Origin: Anaerolineae bacterium
Lineage (GTDB): Bacteria > Chloroflexota > Anaerolineae > Promineifilales > Promineifilaceae
Reading direction: 5' to 3'
NCBI GenBank assembly: GCA_015486215.1
Contig: WFSA01000072.1
Span: 1-40,403, forward strand
DNA: 40,403 nucleotides
The position numbers and the translations under genes are program-made. The notes beneath the pieces are model-generated. The model was not told where the DNA came from. It ran no database searches and worked only from the letters and a program-made list of their open reading frames with translations. Positions 1,954 to 9,781 of this stretch are shown here, one piece after another. The stretch's first letter is position 1; the number at the start of each line of letters is the position of its first letter.

Positions 1954-1981
1954 GTAGGTCAAGTTTGCAAACTTGACCTAC
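1954..1981. repeat. 28-bp palindrome, copy 1 of 7
   Basis: Perfect palindrome with half-site GTAGGTCAAGTTTG. It sits 9 bp upstream of the parA ATG. The other copies are at 2086, 2186, 2286, 5794, 6086 and 7257; none was seen outside 1954-7284. Confidence 0.95.
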
Positions 1982-2389: not shown

Positions 2390-5293
2390 ATGAAAAAGAA
2401 CAACCTGCTCGACCTATTTCTCGTCCCGCTGAAAACGTTGGCTGCCAAATTAAATATCCAAATTTTTATCTTTATCACCATCATTATCATACTATTCCTT
2501 GCCACTCTTGCGTACATGAAGATCGATCCCATCTTAATTATGGTGCTACTATTGATATTCGCTTCTATTGGGATGATTATCTACTACCATCTGGAAAAAA
2601 AACCTGACAAAAGCGATACGGAAGTCGTGAAAGTAACGAAAGAAAATCCATCTCCCACAATGTCCGATAATGAGCTGGAGGAACTCTATCTTAGGAATTT
2701 GCGCGAACAGTGCGGATATGTTTCTACAGCCATATACGCCCCATCATCCAACACGCATCAAAACAAGAACAGCGCAAACACCTTAAAATTAGATGCGGTC
2801 TTTACTAATTTAGATGTGCCATCAACACAACAGAATATACAGCACGAAAAAGGAGAACGATCTTCTCGTCAACCTGTGCTGAACAGTCTCAGCAATCACA
2901 AAAAATTTGTGCTGTTAGGTCAAGCTGGTTCTGGCAAATCTACATTAGTCAATTACATCACCCTCTGCTTGAGCGGAGAGAAATTGGGCGAAACCGATTT
3001 CAATACCGCTGCATTGGCAAAATCGGGATGGAAGTTACCCGCATTAATGCCAATTCGTGTTATTTTACGCGATTATGCTGTACGTGGGCTGCCAATAAAA
3101 CAATCTTTATGGAAATTTATAGAGGCCGAATTAAAAAGAATTGACGATAGTTTAACCGCTTATGCCCCCCAACTGGAACATCACTTAAAGCAAAAAGGGG
3201 GATTATTACTGCTGGATGGGTATGATGAAGTGCCTGAAGCAAATAAACGACGTGAACAACTTAAAAAAGCTATTCAAAATTTTCATGCACATTTTCCTAA
3301 AGTCCGTATCGTCGTTACCACCCGTCCATATGCGTATGAAAACAATCCAGCGTGGCAAATACCTGGATTTTCCTACGCCACCTTACTTAATTTTACGCCA
3401 GACCAAATCTCTGAATATGTGCAACGATGGTACAAAGCAGTTGCTGAAACAGATCCGACCCTGCAAACAGAACATGCAGCAACCTATACGAAACAGTTAC
3501 AATCGGAAGTCGGTAAAAATGGCAAAAAAGGGGTGAGGGAATTGGCGGAACGCCCTTTACTGCTAACCTTAATCTGTTCTCTGCATCGTGCATGGGGTGG
3601 ACGGCCGTTACCGAGCAAACGACACGAACTGTACGAGGCAAGCGTCAAACTCCTTCTTGATTTATGGGAACGACCAAAAATGGTCACTGATGAGCAAGGG
3701 CACGAAGTCCGAATTGGACCAGACTTGGGCGAGCTAGGTATTGATGATACAGACAAAATACGAGATGCACTCAATCAGGTCGCCTATACAGTCCATGCCG
3801 CCCAGCTGGAAAATGAAAACTTAAAAGAGACAGCCGACATACCAGAATATTTATTAACTCACGCACTGATCGACAGCCACCCCGCCAAAGAAATTCCATA
3901 TATACGTGTGGCAGCATACCTCAAAGATCGCACAGGACTGATTATAGATCAGGGGCCAAGCAAAAATGAGAGTAAACAGATAGGAGAACAACCACATATC
4001 TACACCTTTCCGCATCGCACCTTTCAGGAATATCTGGCGGCTTGTTACCTTTTAGCCGAGAAACGCCCGCGTGATATTGCCCATTTAGCGCGCGAAGAGC
4101 GGACAAAGTGGCAAGAAGCATTATTGTTATCAGTGGGACGCAACAATTCCAAACATGATGTATGGAGGTTAGTCAGCGAACTTTGTCCAGACGATTGGGA
4201 AAATGAAAAAATCAATCTCCCCGATGAAACGCGGGATGGAATACTTTTAGCCGGACGGGCATTGAGAGAGAAAGGGTTGACGGATCGTGTTAAGGATGAG
4301 GAGTATGAAAAAATTCGGAAACGGGTGCAAATATGGCACAAAGCAATCGTGACGCACGGCATATTGAAACCGCCAAACCGGGCTGAAGCGGGCTTAACAT
4401 TGGCCGCGCTGGGGGATGACCGACCTGGCGTGCTGCATTGTGATGAGATGCGCTTTTGCACCGTGCCTGCGGGTGAATTTTGGCTGGAAGATTGGAACAA
4501 GAATGGCAACAGCCAATGGTACAAAAAGTTGCGCCAGCCGTACTGGCTGGCGCAGCTACCCGTGACCGTTGCCCAATTCCGCGAATTTATAGACGAAAGC
4601 GGATATACACCAAGAAGCAGTGATAGCCTGATCGGAGCGGATAACCTGCCTGTGGTACAGGTAAACTGGTACGACAGCTTGAAATTCTGTGAGTGGCTGG
4701 ATAAGCGGTGGGGCAAGGATGGTTATGGCTGGCTTCCAAAAGGGTACCACATCACCCTGCCCAGCGAGGCGGAGTGGGAGAAGGCGGCCCGCGGCGGCCG
4801 TTATTTGCCGATGCAAGAACAAATTATACCCCCTGCAGCGTTACGGCAAGCGGCACAAAACAGCTTACCATTGACCGCCCAGGAGCAGCTATTGGCAAAA
4901 CGAGCATACCCATGGGGAGGTGAGCCAGCACAAGAAAAACAGCCCGACGAGACCCTTTTACACCACGCCAATAATGAGACCGCAGGCATTGGCCGCCGCA
5001 GCAGCGTTGGCGCGTTTCCAACCGGCCGCAGCCCGGTTGGTTGTTTGGATATGAGCGGCAATATATGGGAATGGACACGCAGTTTGTATACTAAATCGTT
5101 TCCGCCACAACTGACAGCCGAATTTGAAACAGAAAATTTTGGCAACAAAGAGTCTCTGGTGATGCGCGGCGGTTCATATTATCAAAATCAGAACCTTTGT
5201 TCTGCCCGTGTCTGGTACGATCCGCTCGACCTCATCCTCGATGACCTCGGGTTGCGTGTGGCGGTGTCCCCATTTCTCCCCTCTGAACGCTGA
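2390..5293 (+). CDS. Membrane-anchored NACHT NTPase with C-terminal FGE/C-type-lectin-fold domain; DGR target protein
   Basis: A 967-residue protein starting at ATG 2390, with AGGAACC six bases upstream. Residues ~24-43 and ~46-66 are two hydrophobic membrane segments. A NACHT-type STAND NTPase follows: Walker A GQAGSGKST (177-185), Walker B LLLLDGYDE (272-280) and the sensor-like RIVVTTRPYAY (306-316). A helical region leads to an FGE-sulfatase domain from ~685, recognised by VPAGEFW, LPVTVAQF, LPSEAEWEKAARGG, GNIWEWTRS and VMRGGSYY. The end of this domain is the DGR variable repeat: codons 941-944, 946-948, 950 and 952-953 differ from the template only where the template has adenine. STAND NTPases act as oligomerising sensor switches in immunity and cell-death pathways, so this is probably a membrane-tethered receptor with a diversified ligand-binding face. 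The ligand is unknown. No separate effector domain is obvious; the membrane segments could be the effector. Confidence 0.92.
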   Translation: MKKNNLLDLFLVPLKTLAAKLNIQIFIFITIIIILFLATLAYMKIDPILIMVLLLIFASIGMIIYYHLEKKPDKSDTEVVKVTKENPSPTMSDNELEELYLRNLREQCGYVSTAIYAPSSNTHQNKNSANTLKLDAVFTNLDVPSTQQNIQHEKGERSSRQPVLNSLSNHKKFVLLGQAGSGKSTLVNYITLCLSGEKLGETDFNTAALAKSGWKLPALMPIRVILRDYAVRGLPIKQSLWKFIEAELKRIDDSLTAYAPQLEHHLKQKGGLLLLDGYDEVPEANKRREQLKKAIQNFHAHFPKVRIVVTTRPYAYENNPAWQIPGFSYATLLNFTPDQISEYVQRWYKAVAETDPTLQTEHAATYTKQLQSEVGKNGKKGVRELAERPLLLTLICSLHRAWGGRPLPSKRHELYEASVKLLLDLWERPKMVTDEQGHEVRIGPDLGELGIDDTDKIRDALNQVAYTVHAAQLENENLKETADIPEYLLTHALIDSHPAKEIPYIRVAAYLKDRTGLIIDQGPSKNESKQIGEQPHIYTFPHRTFQEYLAACYLLAEKRPRDIAHLAREERTKWQEALLLSVGRNNSKHDVWRLVSELCPDDWENEKINLPDETRDGILLAGRALREKGLTDRVKDEEYEKIRKRVQIWHKAIVTHGILKPPNRAEAGLTLAALGDDRPGVLHCDEMRFCTVPAGEFWLEDWNKNGNSQWYKKLRQPYWLAQLPVTVAQFREFIDESGYTPRSSDSLIGADNLPVVQVNWYDSLKFCEWLDKRWGKDGYGWLPKGYHITLPSEAEWEKAARGGRYLPMQEQIIPPAALRQAAQNSLPLTAQEQLLAKRAYPWGGEPAQEKQPDETLLHHANNETAGIGRRSSVGAFPTGRSPVGCLDMSGNIWEWTRSLYTKSFPPQLTAEFETENFGNKESLVMRGGSYYQNQNLCSARVWYDPLDLILDDLGLRVAVSPFLPSER
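5193..5269 (+). repeat. DGR variable repeat (VR) in the FGE domain
   Basis: These 77 bases align without gaps to the template repeat at 5904-5980 (offset 711). All 56 positions that are not adenine in the template are identical. Of 21 template adenines, 14 are changed (to G, T or C). Changed codons include AAC to GTC, AGG to TGG, AAC to TAC, AAT to GAT, CAC to CTC, and AAC to GAC or CTC. The invariant 3' end GGGTTGCGTGTGGCGGTGTC is the likely initiation-of-mutagenic-homology region. Confidence 0.97.
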
Positions 5294-5418: not shown

Positions 5419-5449
5419 GATCAAAAAAAATTTTCAAATGGAGCGTATT

Positions 5450-5797
5450 ATGGCACGACAAGAAATGCCCATTTTCAGCAAAACATTTGATTTTCTTACC
5501 TGGTTACTGCCCGTCAGTAACAAATTTCCCCGCGCCCATCGGCAAACCGTCACCAAACGCTTCCTCGATGCCGCTTTTGAGTTGCGCGAACATCTGGAAG
5601 CGGCTAACCTTCGTCGCGGTGCAGCCCGCCGCCAAAAACTGCACGAAGCAGATGAAGCATTAGCCAACATCCGCCTTTACCTGCGCTTAACCGCCCATTG
5701 GCAATGGCTTTCCAAAGGGCAATACCATCATGCGGCAAAAATGCTCAATGAAATTGGGCGTTTGCTCGGCGGCTGGATGAAAACAGTACCCGTGTAG
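5450..5797 (+). CDS. avd: DGR accessory variability determinant (Avd-like)
   Basis: A 115-residue, basic, mostly helical protein. I chose ATG 5450 because GGAG sits six bases upstream. The pattern (PIFSKTFDFLTWLLPVSNKF, RFLDAAFELREHLEAANL, ADEALANIRLYLRL, AAKMLNEIGRLLGGW) matches the four-helix-bundle Avd family, which forms a pentamer, binds the reverse transcriptase and the template RNA, and is needed for mutagenic retrohoming. Its length is close to the usual ~115-130. It lies between the target gene and the template repeat on the same strand as both. Its TAG stop is the second to fourth base of palindrome copy 5, so the repeat abuts the gene exactly. Confidence 0.9.
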   Translation: MARQEMPIFSKTFDFLTWLLPVSNKFPRAHRQTVTKRFLDAAFELREHLEAANLRRGAARRQKLHEADEALANIRLYLRLTAHWQWLSKGQYHHAAKMLNEIGRLLGGWMKTVPV

Positions 5798-5821
5798 GTC
5801 AAGTTTGCAAACTTGACCTAC
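5794..5821. repeat. 28-bp palindrome, copy 5 of 7
   Basis: Perfect copy, half-site GTAGGTCAAGTTTG. It contains the avd stop codon and separates avd from the template-repeat region. Confidence 0.95.
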
Positions 5822-5888: not shown

Positions 5889-6078
5889 GGGCAAAACCCA
5901 GACACCTTTGTTCTGCCCGTAACAGGAACAATCCGCACAACAACATCAACGATAACAACGGGTTGCGTGTGGCGGTGTCCACACTTCTCAAGCGGGTTCA
6001 CTCGCAACTATCCCCCCCAGAATTACGCGGCGGATACGTCTTCTGCGTCGAGGGTAGAGAAATGGCGGGGTTTTGTCC
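5889..6078 (+). ncRNA. Putative DGR template RNA region enclosing TR
   Basis: GGGCAAAACCC (5889-5899) can pair with GGGTTTTGTCC (6068-6078): 11 pairs with one G-U. This would close a large loop containing the TR. The transcript would run on the plus strand, the sense orientation of both TR and VR. The true RNA ends cannot be seen from sequence. Confidence 0.45.
5904..5980 (+). repeat. DGR template repeat (TR)
   Basis: A 77-bp non-coding donor copy of the VR. Read in the VR frame it is rich in AAC/AAT codons (N-R-N-N-P-H-N-N-I-N-D-N-N where the VR reads V-W-Y-D-P-L-D-L-I-L-D-D-L), the hallmark that gives maximal diversity with no stop codons. Outside 5904-5980 the similarity to the target gene ends abruptly. 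Confidence 0.97.
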
Positions 6079-6085
6079 TGGCCGT

Positions 6086-6113
6086 GTAGGTCAAGTTTGC
6101 AAACTTGACCTAC
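6086..6113. repeat. 28-bp palindrome, copy 6 of 7
   Basis: Perfect copy placed between the TR region and the reverse transcriptase 3' end. With copy 5 it brackets the TR. Confidence 0.95.
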
Positions 6114-6172
6114 GAGGGCAAATACCAACGGCTGTGCCGCCTCGGTTCGTCCCTGCGGCACAGCTAAACTTT

Positions 6173-6210
6173 CAAGAGTGATTCACTCTTTCGGGAGTGA
6201 ACCACTCTTG
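6173..6210. terminator. Hairpin at the 3' end of the reverse transcriptase gene
   Basis: CAAGAGTGATTCACTC (6173-6188) and GAGTGAACCACTCTTG (6195-6210) form a 16-bp stem with one mismatch around a 6-base loop. It spans the RT stop codon. There is no clear T-run, so it may be a processing or termination structure between the convergent TR and RT transcripts rather than a classical terminator. Confidence 0.5.
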
Positions 6211-7241
6211 GGAACAAGAGTGTTCATCAGAACCGCCTTCCGCAAACCGACCGTATTCCCCCAACGCGCATGATTTGCCCATCCTCGCACCGAAGCAGTC
6301 ACTTGTTCCAAATTTATCTCCCCCTTTGCATATTGCGCCAATAATCTGTGAAATTTTTGTTGATACTGCACCCCATTGCGCCGCTTCAAGCGCATTCGAT
6401 CTGGAAAAATTTGAAAACCTAAAAAAGGAATGCCCTCCGTGACGGGACGGGGGTGAGTGCCGTCGTGAATAGTTAATCGCAACAGTGCCAATCGCTCTAT
6501 CGCTGCCGTTTTCCAGTGCCACAATGTCTTTTTATTGTCAGCAAAAAGCAAAAAATCATCCACATAGCGCACATAACCGTGACAGCGCAGTTCCCGCTTC
6601 ACAAAATGGTCAAACGGGTTCATGTACACATTGGCCCAAAATTGACTGGTCAAATTCCCAATCGGCAAGCCGCGCGGCCTGTTGATGGCAAAGAGGTCAT
6701 CATCTGCAAAATAAACCATGTCATACTGCGCTTTCAGCACCTCTTTGCCGCCATCCAAAATCAAATCAATCAACCAGATCAGATGCGGATCGTTTACTTT
6801 TCGTGCCAGCGCACAGCGCAAAATCTGATGATCCACGCTGGGGAAAAATTGACGTACATCGGCTTGCCACACATAACGAAAACGGCGGGCATACTGCTGA
6901 CAGCGGGCGCGTGCTGCGTGAGTTCCTTTGCCCATTCGATTCGCATAGCTGTCAGTAATAAAACTGCGCTCAAATCGGGGTTCGATCAAGTTGCACAGTG
7001 CATGATGCACAACACGATCTCGGAAAGGGGCGGCACTAATCAAGCGTCGTTTGGGATCGTGAATAAAGAAACTGTGATATCCGCCAGGGCGATATAATTG
7101 TGATGATAATTCGTGTGCCAATTGTAATACATTGTCTTCTACACGATGGTCGAAAGCGGCAGCGTCCAAGCTGCCACGCTTACCCTTACTCGCGCGGCGG
7201 TATGCCAGTTGCAGATTATCCCAGCTTGCTAACGGCTCCAT
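6183..7241 (-). CDS. DGR reverse transcriptase
   Basis: A 352-residue reverse transcriptase starting at ATG 7241. An alternative TTG at 7265 lies inside palindrome copy 7 and is not favoured. Catalytic regions are intact: VWQADVRQFFPSVD (first Asp ~128), GLPIGNLTSQFWANVYMNPF (~192-211) and YVDD (~226-229), then GIPFLGF. The IGNLTSQ motif in the fourth RT block distinguishes DGR reverse transcriptases from retron and group II intron enzymes, and no intron maturase domain is present. It would copy the template RNA with adenine-specific errors and, with Avd, write the cDNA into the VR. Its strand is opposite to avd, TR and VR, so RT and template RNA are made convergently and RT needs its own promoter to the right of 7241. 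Confidence 0.95.
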   Translation of the reverse strand: MEPLASWDNLQLAYRRASKGKRGSLDAAAFDHRVEDNVLQLAHELSSQLYRPGGYHSFFIHDPKRRLISAAPFRDRVVHHALCNLIEPRFERSFITDSYANRMGKGTHAARARCQQYARRFRYVWQADVRQFFPSVDHQILRCALARKVNDPHLIWLIDLILDGGKEVLKAQYDMVYFADDDLFAINRPRGLPIGNLTSQFWANVYMNPFDHFVKRELRCHGYVRYVDDFLLFADNKKTLWHWKTAAIERLALLRLTIHDGTHPRPVTEGIPFLGFQIFPDRMRLKRRNGVQYQQKFHRLLAQYAKGEINLEQVTASVRGWANHARWGNTVGLRKAVLMNTLVPKSGSLPKE

Positions 7242-7256
7242 CACCTTCCTGTTCTT

Positions 7257-7284
7257 GTGGGTCAAGTTTGCAAACTTGACCTAC
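7257..7284. repeat. 28-bp palindrome, copy 7 of 7
   Basis: One mismatch to the consensus (GTGGGTC at the left end). It ends 16 bp upstream of the RT start and is the rightmost copy in the window. Confidence 0.9.
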
Positions 7285-7350
7285 CGGTCAGCAGGATCGG
7301 CATACTCTTTGTTTAGCTTCTCTTGGCAAAACTGATCCGCCAACGCGCTA

Positions 7351-7478
7351 ATCATTTGGGTGTGTTTCAAATGAGTTGAGCCAAAGTGATTGTCACGGGG
7401 CGAACGGGCTTGGTTTACCCAAAACTTTGTGCCCCGTGACTGTCACTTCTACTGAAATGAAACACACCCTAATCATTT
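7351..7478. repeat. MITE-like element, family M3, copy 1
   Basis: An imperfect inverted repeat of ~128 bp whose ends carry GGGTGTGTTTCA and TGAAACACACCC. Internal arms TCACGGGGC/GCCCCGTGA can pair. The copy at 8025-8154 is the same element in opposite orientation. Confidence 0.85.
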
Positions 7479-7492
7479 CATACGTTTCTGGG

Positions 7493-7776: not shown

Positions 7777-8024
7777 GTTCTATTTTCCTTAATTTTTTGA
7801 CATGCAAAATGATAACATTCATCTTTACAGTTTAGCGTCGTAAATGAAACGCGGATGGGACGGATAAACGCGGATTTTCTTTGTTTTATCCGCGTTGACG
7901 GGAATTCACCTCTCTAAAAAACTGGGTAAACGGCCTTTCACCCTCACCCCAACCCTTTGGGGAAGGGTGAGGATGGGGGAGTAACCGATTACCAGAAGAA
8001 ATTGAACCACTCTCTGAAAAAATC

Positions 8025-8154
8025 AAATGATTTGGGTGTGTTTCATTTCAGTAGAAGTGATAGTCACGGGGCGCATAGTTTCGGGTAAATTAAGTCCGTT
8101 TGCCCCGTGACAATCACTTTGGTTCAACTCATTTGAAACGCACCCAAATGATTT
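8025..8154. repeat. MITE-like element, family M3, copy 2 (inverted)
   Basis: Reverse-complement relative of 7351-7478, ending near 8154, about 150 bp before the ATPase start codon. Confidence 0.85.
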
Positions 8155-8302
8155 TAGCGATTTAGTACTGAAAGTATAGTGAAAAACATGTATCACGTGA
8201 AAAACGCGAAATTCATCCTTGACTTTCTCAAAACATTCGATTAGTATAGTTGTAAATAGACTATTCGTAACTACGCTATATGCAGTTGAGATTGAGGCTG
8301 AG

Positions 8303-9781
8303 ATGATATTTGTCGGAAGAGATAGAGAGTTAGAAGTATTAGACAATTTATGGGAATCGCCTAGAGCAACATTGCTTATTCTATACGGCCGTCGGCGTGT
8401 TGGCAAGACCCGCTTATTAACACATTGGCTGCAACAGCGGGAACGGAACGGATTCTATTGGGTTGCCGAACCCTCATCTTCACTTTCCCAATTGCGATCA
8501 TTTTCGCAAGCGTTGATGCGTTTCATGGATGATGAGGCTGACATTCCGGCAGATTTCACCTTTTCCACATGGGAATTGGCGTTCAGGCAGCTCGCTTTGT
8601 ACGCACAGCAAGAGCGCATCGTCCTTTTTCTGGATGAAGTGACTTATTTGATTGATGTTGACCCTGAATTTGTCGGCGTTTTGCAAAAAGTGTGGGATCG
8701 ATGGTTAAAGGATTCCAAATTGATGTTCGCGCTGGCTGGTTCGCAAATGGGATTAATGCGCCGTCATCTGCTTAATTATGATGCACCCCTGCACGGCCGT
8801 GCGACAGCCCAAATGCAACTCCCGCCACTCCCTTACGGAGCAACCCGAGATTATTTCCCCGAATATGATGCTGTTCAGCGCGTCAACCTATACGCCATGT
8901 GGGGCGGCGTTCCCGCCTATTGGGAGCGATTGAACCCCAATTACAACATTTGGGAAAATTTGCGGCGGAACACCTTGCCCGCTCATTCATGGATGACGGA
9001 TGAATCCCGCATTTTATTACAGGATTTCATCACCGATCTGCATAATTATGTCGGTATTTTACGCGCCATCGCTGATGAACAGCGTGCCATCGGCCAAATT
9101 GCCAAGCGCACCGGCTTGACGAGCAGTAAAGCGTCCTTTTATCTCAGCGTTTTGCGTGACACAGGATTCGTCACCCGCGAAATTCCGATTTCGCAGCGCG
9201 GCACTGATTCCCGACGCGGCCGTTACTCCGTCACCGACCCATACCTCCGCTTTTTTTACCGCTTCTTGTCCGCTTACCAATCAAAATTAGCCTTAGGGCG
9301 GATGGATGAGATGTTGACTATGATTCAAGCGGAACTGCCGCTCTTTATTCAAGAGAACAGTTGGCAGGAACTTTGCCGCCAATGGACATTAACTGCCAGC
9401 GCGATGGGCGTTCTGCCCATTGAAGTGGATGAGGTTGGCAGTGAATGGGCTAGTCGTTACATGCTCGATGTCGTTGGAGTCAATGAGCAGACGACTGATT
9501 TGCTCATTGGTGATTGCTATTGGAGCGATGAGCCGCTAGATCATCAAGCGATCATCAAACTTGTGGATAAAACAACGACCATCGCCACCAATATGAACAA
9601 AGGGGAGGTCAGCAATGTGCATTACACCCTATTCTCCTCTGCCGGCTGGAATGAAGATGCCCATTTATATGCCGAAACGCTGGTTGCCAGCGACACACGG
9701 CGCAAGTATTGGCGATTACACTCTGTTGAGTTGATTGATTTGGAACGCTTAGACAGGGATTTGATCACGTGGAAAATCTAA
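8303..9781 (+). CDS. ATPase_2/DUF234-type AAA+ ATPase
   Basis: A 492-residue protein. I chose ATG 8303 (MIFVGRDRELEVL), where this family normally begins. A P-loop YGRRRVGKTRLL lies at ~34-45 and a Walker B IVLFLDEVTYL near 110. A winged-helix segment (IGQIAKRTGLTSSKASFYLS) and a DUF234-like C-terminal half (YSVTDPYLRFFYRFL) follow. These ATPases are common in archaea and mobile-element-rich bacteria; their function is poorly defined, with the C-terminal part resembling nuclease-like folds. No partner gene is coupled to it. The upstream 150 bp is taken up by repeat M3, so its promoter probably lies within or next to that repeat. Confidence 0.85.
   Translation: MIFVGRDRELEVLDNLWESPRATLLILYGRRRVGKTRLLTHWLQQRERNGFYWVAEPSSSLSQLRSFSQALMRFMDDEADIPADFTFSTWELAFRQLALYAQQERIVLFLDEVTYLIDVDPEFVGVLQKVWDRWLKDSKLMFALAGSQMGLMRRHLLNYDAPLHGRATAQMQLPPLPYGATRDYFPEYDAVQRVNLYAMWGGVPAYWERLNPNYNIWENLRRNTLPAHSWMTDESRILLQDFITDLHNYVGILRAIADEQRAIGQIAKRTGLTSSKASFYLSVLRDTGFVTREIPISQRGTDSRRGRYSVTDPYLRFFYRFLSAYQSKLALGRMDEMLTMIQAELPLFIQENSWQELCRQWTLTASAMGVLPIEVDEVGSEWASRYMLDVVGVNEQTTDLLIGDCYWSDEPLDHQAIIKLVDKTTTIATNMNKGEVSNVHYTLFSSAGWNEDAHLYAETLVASDTRRKYWRLHSVELIDLERLDRDLITWKI

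Follow-up and report, generated by a model that had tools for sequence, protein, structure and literature searches.

A diversity-generating retroelement of an Anaerolineae lineage with its reverse transcriptase facing a conserved template RNA

We analysed a 40,403-nt stretch of DNA from an Anaerolineae bacterium (hereafter the window), which carries a complete, genuine diversity-generating retroelement (DGR) composed of a reverse transcriptase (RT) gene, avd, a template repeat (TR) and a target gene with a variable repeat (VR) (Table 1). The RT translation contains YVDD and IGNLTSQ, which correspond to the YxDD and DGR-type GxxxSQ motifs, the SQ motif having been discussed as a DGR mark (PMC3521204), and the avd product scores 92.1 bits against NF033474, where the cut-off for the DGR accessory protein Avd is 80. 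The VR falls at the C-terminus of the FGE-sulfatase domain, as in DGR targets of the ligand-binding (CLec) type, and sequence profiles make clear to which fold and family RT, Avd and target each belong. In the available portion of Dore et al. (2024, PMC10907252), DGRs of multicellular bacteria are described in which STAND/NACHT antigen sensors are diversified and whose NACHT plus CLec-type targets resemble that of the window; in contrast to the arrangement seen here, a flipped RT is not discussed in that portion.

The full TR and VR differ at 16 positions, 15 of them TR adenines, and in the 76-nt core that precedes the IMH-like end all 14 mismatches are at TR adenines, the adenine-specific pattern of a DGR (20 of the 76 core bases are A; hypergeometric probability 6e-11 for all-A mismatches). 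An IMH*/IMH difference is a feature of the DGR of Bordetella phage BPP-1. It is resembled here by a fixed difference between the terminal bases of the TR (CCACACTTCTC) and those of the VR (CCCCATTTCTC), found in the window and at two related loci introduced below, L053 and L091.

Table 1. Coordinates of the DGR components, RNA elements and repeats of the window, and of four template cassettes found elsewhere.
Feature	Position	Strand	Evidence
DGR target gene, 967 aa, NACHT NTPase with C-terminal FGE-sulfatase/C-type-lectin-like domain	2390-5293	+	Pfam PF05729, PF03781
Variable repeat (VR), at 3' end of target gene	5193-5278	+	A-specific repeat pair with TR
avd, ATG at 5438 or 5450	5438-5797	+	PF22296 (bAvd), E 3e-20; NF033474 over cut-off
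GGGCAAAACCC, 5' side of predicted long-range helix enclosing TR (3' side GGGGTTTTGTCC at 6067-6078)	5889-5899	+	RNA folding of window and L053
Template repeat (TR)	5904-5989	+	A-specific pair with VR
TR 3' end ACTTCTC (IMH*-like), pairing with GAGAAAT at 6057-6063; putative cDNA priming helix	5983-5989	+	Heptamer covariation
Conserved structured 3' spacer of TR RNA, three helices, GC-rich terminal hairpin at end	6014-6166	+	Model R1
Dispersed 28-bp palindrome copy, occupying apical hairpin of helix 2 of TR RNA	6086-6113		Alignment
16-bp hairpin at convergence point, overlapping RT stop and last codons	6173-6210		Part of low-copy repeat
DGR reverse transcriptase, 352 aa	6183-7241	-	RVT_1, E 3e-15; YVDD and IGNLTSQ; RT tree
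Dispersed palindrome copy, one mismatch, 16 bp upstream of RT start	7257-7284		Genome copy count
Satellite TR-VR cassettes	L161 7334-7915; L162 694-1203; L163 7324-7665; L164 3763-4244		TR RNA model

The RT gene occupies the minus strand, and the target gene with its VR, avd and the TR all occupy the plus strand. The initial annotation had read the RT as convergent with the TR, VR and avd, and this proved correct, as did its remarks that no single transcript can contain both RT and TR and that the layout is unlike that of the best-studied DGRs. It had placed the convergence in a zone from about 6000 to 6180; the convergence stands but the zone shrinks to about 17 bp, from the end of the TR RNA model match at 6166 to the RT stop at 6183. 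The 16-bp hairpin that it reported at this point is present, with one mismatch in its arms.

An RT on the strand opposite TR, VR and target ORF is the hallmark of 'inverted' DGRs, a layout known since 2012 and of which the window carries a further example. Schillinger et al. (2012, PMC3521204) described three such elements as Group 4 (Shewanella baltica OS155, Vibrio sp. RC586 and Photobacterium angustum S14), inferred a one-time inversion and concluded that a single transcript holding both RT mRNA and template RNA is not required. Like Group 4, the element in the window has its RT separated by strand from TR, VR and target, and is otherwise a normal A-specific DGR. Set side by side by pattern only, it also resembles the RT-inverted cassette pattern G5 of Yan et al. 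(2019, PMC6642488), compared with which the canonical pattern G1 is more than 20 times commoner. By description, the window is like BPP-1 in the order VR, avd, TR and in its 3' spacer RNA, which in BPP-1 recruits RT-Avd and primes cDNA (PMC12875486), but unlike it in the orientation of the RT, which in BPP-1 is co-oriented.

RT relatives were gathered from the genome's family, its class and named genomes, mostly Anaerolineae, and their flanking DNA was examined; a search of viral contigs for relatives returned a single distant match (33% identity). A repeat-pair scan over 121 loci, including the window and with L042/L068 and L043/L069 representing the same DNA reached by two routes, identified template-A-specific TR-VR pairs at 93 loci and C- or G-specific control pairs at 10. 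TR and RT are co-oriented at most loci. This comparison of RT orientation across related Chloroflexota DGRs, which the initial annotation had suggested, revealed a conserved inverted lineage, with the window's layout also found at L053, L054, L093 and L091, which come from three further genera of the window's family, one of them shared by L054 and L093. The RT is intact at L053, L054 and L093, and L091 keeps a remnant only. All five inverted loci have a similar TR end and a NACHT/FGE-like target of about 920-1040 aa with an open frame, as judged by domain scan for the window and by sequence similarity for the others. L055, L056, L102, L107 and L075 could be classified only in part, owing to contig ends or a partial RT, with L055 co-oriented by RNA motif. 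The window genome also contains a second DGR (L070; G000:C60, 3122-4923) with the order VR-RT-avd-TR on one strand, whose RT is 56% identical to the window RT.

The sequence around and downstream of the TR points to a structured template RNA. Both sides of the predicted helix that encloses the TR are present at all five inverted loci, and the spacers 3' of the TR share their motif order across these loci. Searched against Rfam, the TR RNA gave no match and was consequently rejected as a known Rfam family. RNAalifold detected compensatory changes in 25 of 29 pairs among 18 sequences. Model R1 assigned the window spacer 124 bits (E 2e-31), and the covariance model yielded 51 matches in 49 of 59 sources, with the window counted among them. 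In the alignment of these matches, 25 of 27 pairs had changed on both sides and 93.7% of cells were able to pair, versus 67.7% when shuffled and 37-47% when slid; this alignment is fitted to the model, so its counts lean towards structure; the slid controls agree with it, as does the initial alignment, which was not fitted. The heptamer at the TR 3' end and its partner in the spacer formed 149 of 161 possible standard pairs over 23 loci (permutation p 5e-5), and the 17 distinct heptamer pairs formed 111 of 119 (permuted mean 90, maximum 103), with the caveats that the heptamers were chosen by eye, which favours pairing, and that the shuffle controls for composition only. In a published scheme (PMC12875486), cDNA synthesis starts in the TR 3' junction, with an adenine of the spacer as primer; the heptamer pairing matches this scheme in position and may mark where priming occurs. 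The RNA motif precedes the RT match by 68-205 nt at canonical loci; in the window, 17 bp separate the end of the RNA from the RT stop. On sequence evidence, the TR RNA is a unit kept intact in both orientations, for which an RT neighbour in the usual order is dispensable.

One helix of this RNA contains a copy of the palindrome GTAGGTCAAGTTTGCAAACTTGACCTAC, which replaced a variable hairpin there. Allowing up to 3 mismatches, the genome contains 61 copies of the palindrome, which, being dispersed genome-wide, was rejected as a DGR-specific element; its copies in the window (1954-1981, 2086-2113, 2286-2313, 5794-5821, 6086-6113 and 7257-7284) are concentrated around the DGR cassette. The near-identical 28-bp copies at 6086 and 7257 bracket the RT, and recombination between them, either as an assembly error or as a phase-variable switch, could in principle have flipped the gene. 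The 6086 copy sits within the conserved TR RNA, so that such a flip would also have turned positions 6114-6166 and reversed the CAAATACCAAC motif and the terminal hairpin (6119-6166), yet this segment is in correct register with the TR and in the register of all relatives. Furthermore, the relatives have the same layout, in four other genome assemblies, with no such palindromes at those places. The assembly inversion raised by the initial annotation is thereby refuted, and we regard a flip of either kind as extremely improbable. Two MITE-like intergenic copies of 132 bp, each with internal inverted repeats, lie upstream of the RT (7350-7481 and 8022-8153; 91% alike, in inverted orientation), followed by a gene at 8219-9781 that is divergent from the RT and encodes an ATPase_2/DUF234 protein matching the candidate defence family PDC-S27 (E 5e-49).

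In the RT tree, the window, L053, L054 and L093 form one clade (support 97/83) nested among co-oriented DGRs. Because canonical co-oriented DGRs surround this clade, the inversion looks like one old event that was inherited with the cassette; the five TR-opposite RTs in the tree require two state changes, the second of which is L118. According to the RNA model, the TR RNA is on the strand opposite the RT at 7 of 50 loci, comprising the five of the window's lineage, L118 and L122. The last two are separate TR-RT inversions from other parts of the class and were rejected as members of the window's event: at L118 (3484-7251) avd, TR and target face an RT that is placed elsewhere in the RT tree, and at L122 (4420-6073) the TR RNA faces both avd and RT. 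The Group 4 elements are gammaproteobacterial, whereas the window's lineage is nested among co-oriented Anaerolineae DGRs. Gammaproteobacterial RTs in a plasmid collection are about 32-36% identical to the window RT, and this low identity, together with the nesting, makes it very probable that the window's inversion is independent of that of Group 4, with Group 4 taken by description and the identity measured on the plasmid-borne RTs.

Homing appears to have continued after the inversion. At lineage-specific non-A sites, the VR base was that of its own TR in 22 of 22, 12 of 12 and 10 of 10 cases (window, L053 and L093 compared), which, if the inversion is shared by descent, means that VRs have been overwritten from TRs since it occurred. 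The RT dN/dS is about 0.13-0.14 within the inverted clade (0.021/0.155 for L054-L093 and 0.097/0.745 for L053-L054), which places the RT under purifying selection. The initial annotation had suggested that convergent transcription might tie template synthesis to RT expression or set one against the other, and this found no support: the concerted evolution of TR and VR shows only that the head-on layout permits homing. Combined with the constraint on the RT, it indicates an inverted element that is functional or was until recently. The cassette might instead be an inactive relic, decaying since the inversion parted RT from TR, as suggested by the loss of most of the RT at L091 and by the dispersed palindromes inserted in the cassette. 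We consider this very unlikely, given an RT that is intact and constrained within the clade, a window TR-VR core with zero non-A mismatches, the concerted evolution of the repeats and a covarying TR RNA that remains intact at 124 bits.

At the junction of RT and TR RNA, the inverted loci carry stems of 12-17 bp at the RT 3' end, with unrelated sequences among the window, L053, L054/L093 and L091. A hairpin score of at least 12 was found at 2 of 42 RT-last loci, and the difference between inverted and RT-last loci (Fisher p 0.0004, or 0.0025 with L054 and L093 as one lineage) rests on few lineages and on scored windows that are not identical between the groups. The window hairpin's score of 13 comes from its own scan, and a shorter stretch in the cross-locus scan scored 8. 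At L053 and L091 a T-run follows the terminal hairpin of the TR RNA, resembling an intrinsic terminator; the window has no T-run there, nor does its junction hairpin. Scans of the junction region for sigma-70 promoters and terminators gave no more sites than shuffled sequences, and therefore identified neither an RT promoter nor a classical terminator. A two-way terminator would be the simplest role for the junction hairpin.

The recurrence of these hairpins with unrelated sequences (p 0.0025 as counted above), the retention of the layout across several genera and the mere 17 bp or so between TR RNA and RT stop are also what might be expected of a selected regulatory device, in which read-through transcripts antisense to RT or TR RNA limit diversification. 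This is unlikely in our view, since co-oriented relatives manage without a head-on layout, a single inversion by descent accounts for its distribution, the inverted loci differ in junction spacing (between 67 and 163 nt, measured from the RNA motif), and the hairpin statistic involves few independent cases and differing score windows. Two points weigh against the main reading given next: L091 is inverted and has an RT remnant only, so upkeep of the layout is not constant, and the promoter and terminator scans yielded no more than shuffles did.

The window probably holds a genuine inverted-type DGR in which RT and TR RNA are separate transcription units and the head-on layout is tolerated and inherited. 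We propose that the target gene, avd and TR RNA would form one plus-strand unit, met tail to tail by the RT as its own minus-strand unit with, presumably, a separate promoter. RT and Avd would bind a self-contained TR RNA with three elements: the TR itself, a helix formed by its 3' end with the spacer, from which cDNA synthesis would be primed, and the three-helix spacer with its terminal hairpin. The two proteins would copy this RNA, making errors at adenines, and the VR would be overwritten by the cDNA. As the TR kept its template RNA module complete, reversal of the RT gene would have cost no function. The head-on layout itself would most likely be a rearrangement that was inherited and tolerated, and the hairpin at the junction would act as a terminator in both directions or as a barrier.

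Four further TR-VR cassettes came to light with the RNA model; they carry the conserved TR RNA, and the DNA retrieved around them contains neither RT nor avd. Their TR-VR differences are almost all at adenines (adenine/other: 16/0 for L161, 12/1 for L162, 13/0 for L163 and 10/1 for L164). Two of the four are deep in long contigs; neighbours may be missing at L164, whose contig measures 4.7 kb, and at L162, which begins 694 bases from an end of its contig. Genomes G060 and G024 yielded no full-length RT of the window's RT family and no bAvd over cut-off, although both are metagenome-assembled genomes about 97% complete, for which absence is not proof, and G032 holds L162 and also an inverted DGR. 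These satellites are candidates for templates served in trans, a mode of action that Dore et al. (2024, PMC10907252) also inferred for loci without RT or TR. This RNA family is seen with a co-oriented RT, with a head-on RT, and with RT and avd both missing from the vicinity, which suggests that one RT may serve several cassettes. Whether DGR template RNA in the window's bacterial family is an autonomous module served in trans, with one RT able to diversify several cassettes per genome, we judge to be a nearly even question, leaning slightly towards no.

The three cases of 2012 now have alongside them an inversion that is mapped on a tree and shows signs that homing continued, an argument that co-transcription of RT and template RNA is not required. 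The covarying TR RNA family, unmatched in Rfam, marks DGRs and template-only satellites independently of RT and repeat pair, and together with the inversion it makes the minimal trans-served DGR template a directly testable question. At the inverted DGR of G032 (L053), two small ORFs that are toxin-antitoxin-like (PIN-like by appearance) lie between the target gene and avd, at 2931-3583.
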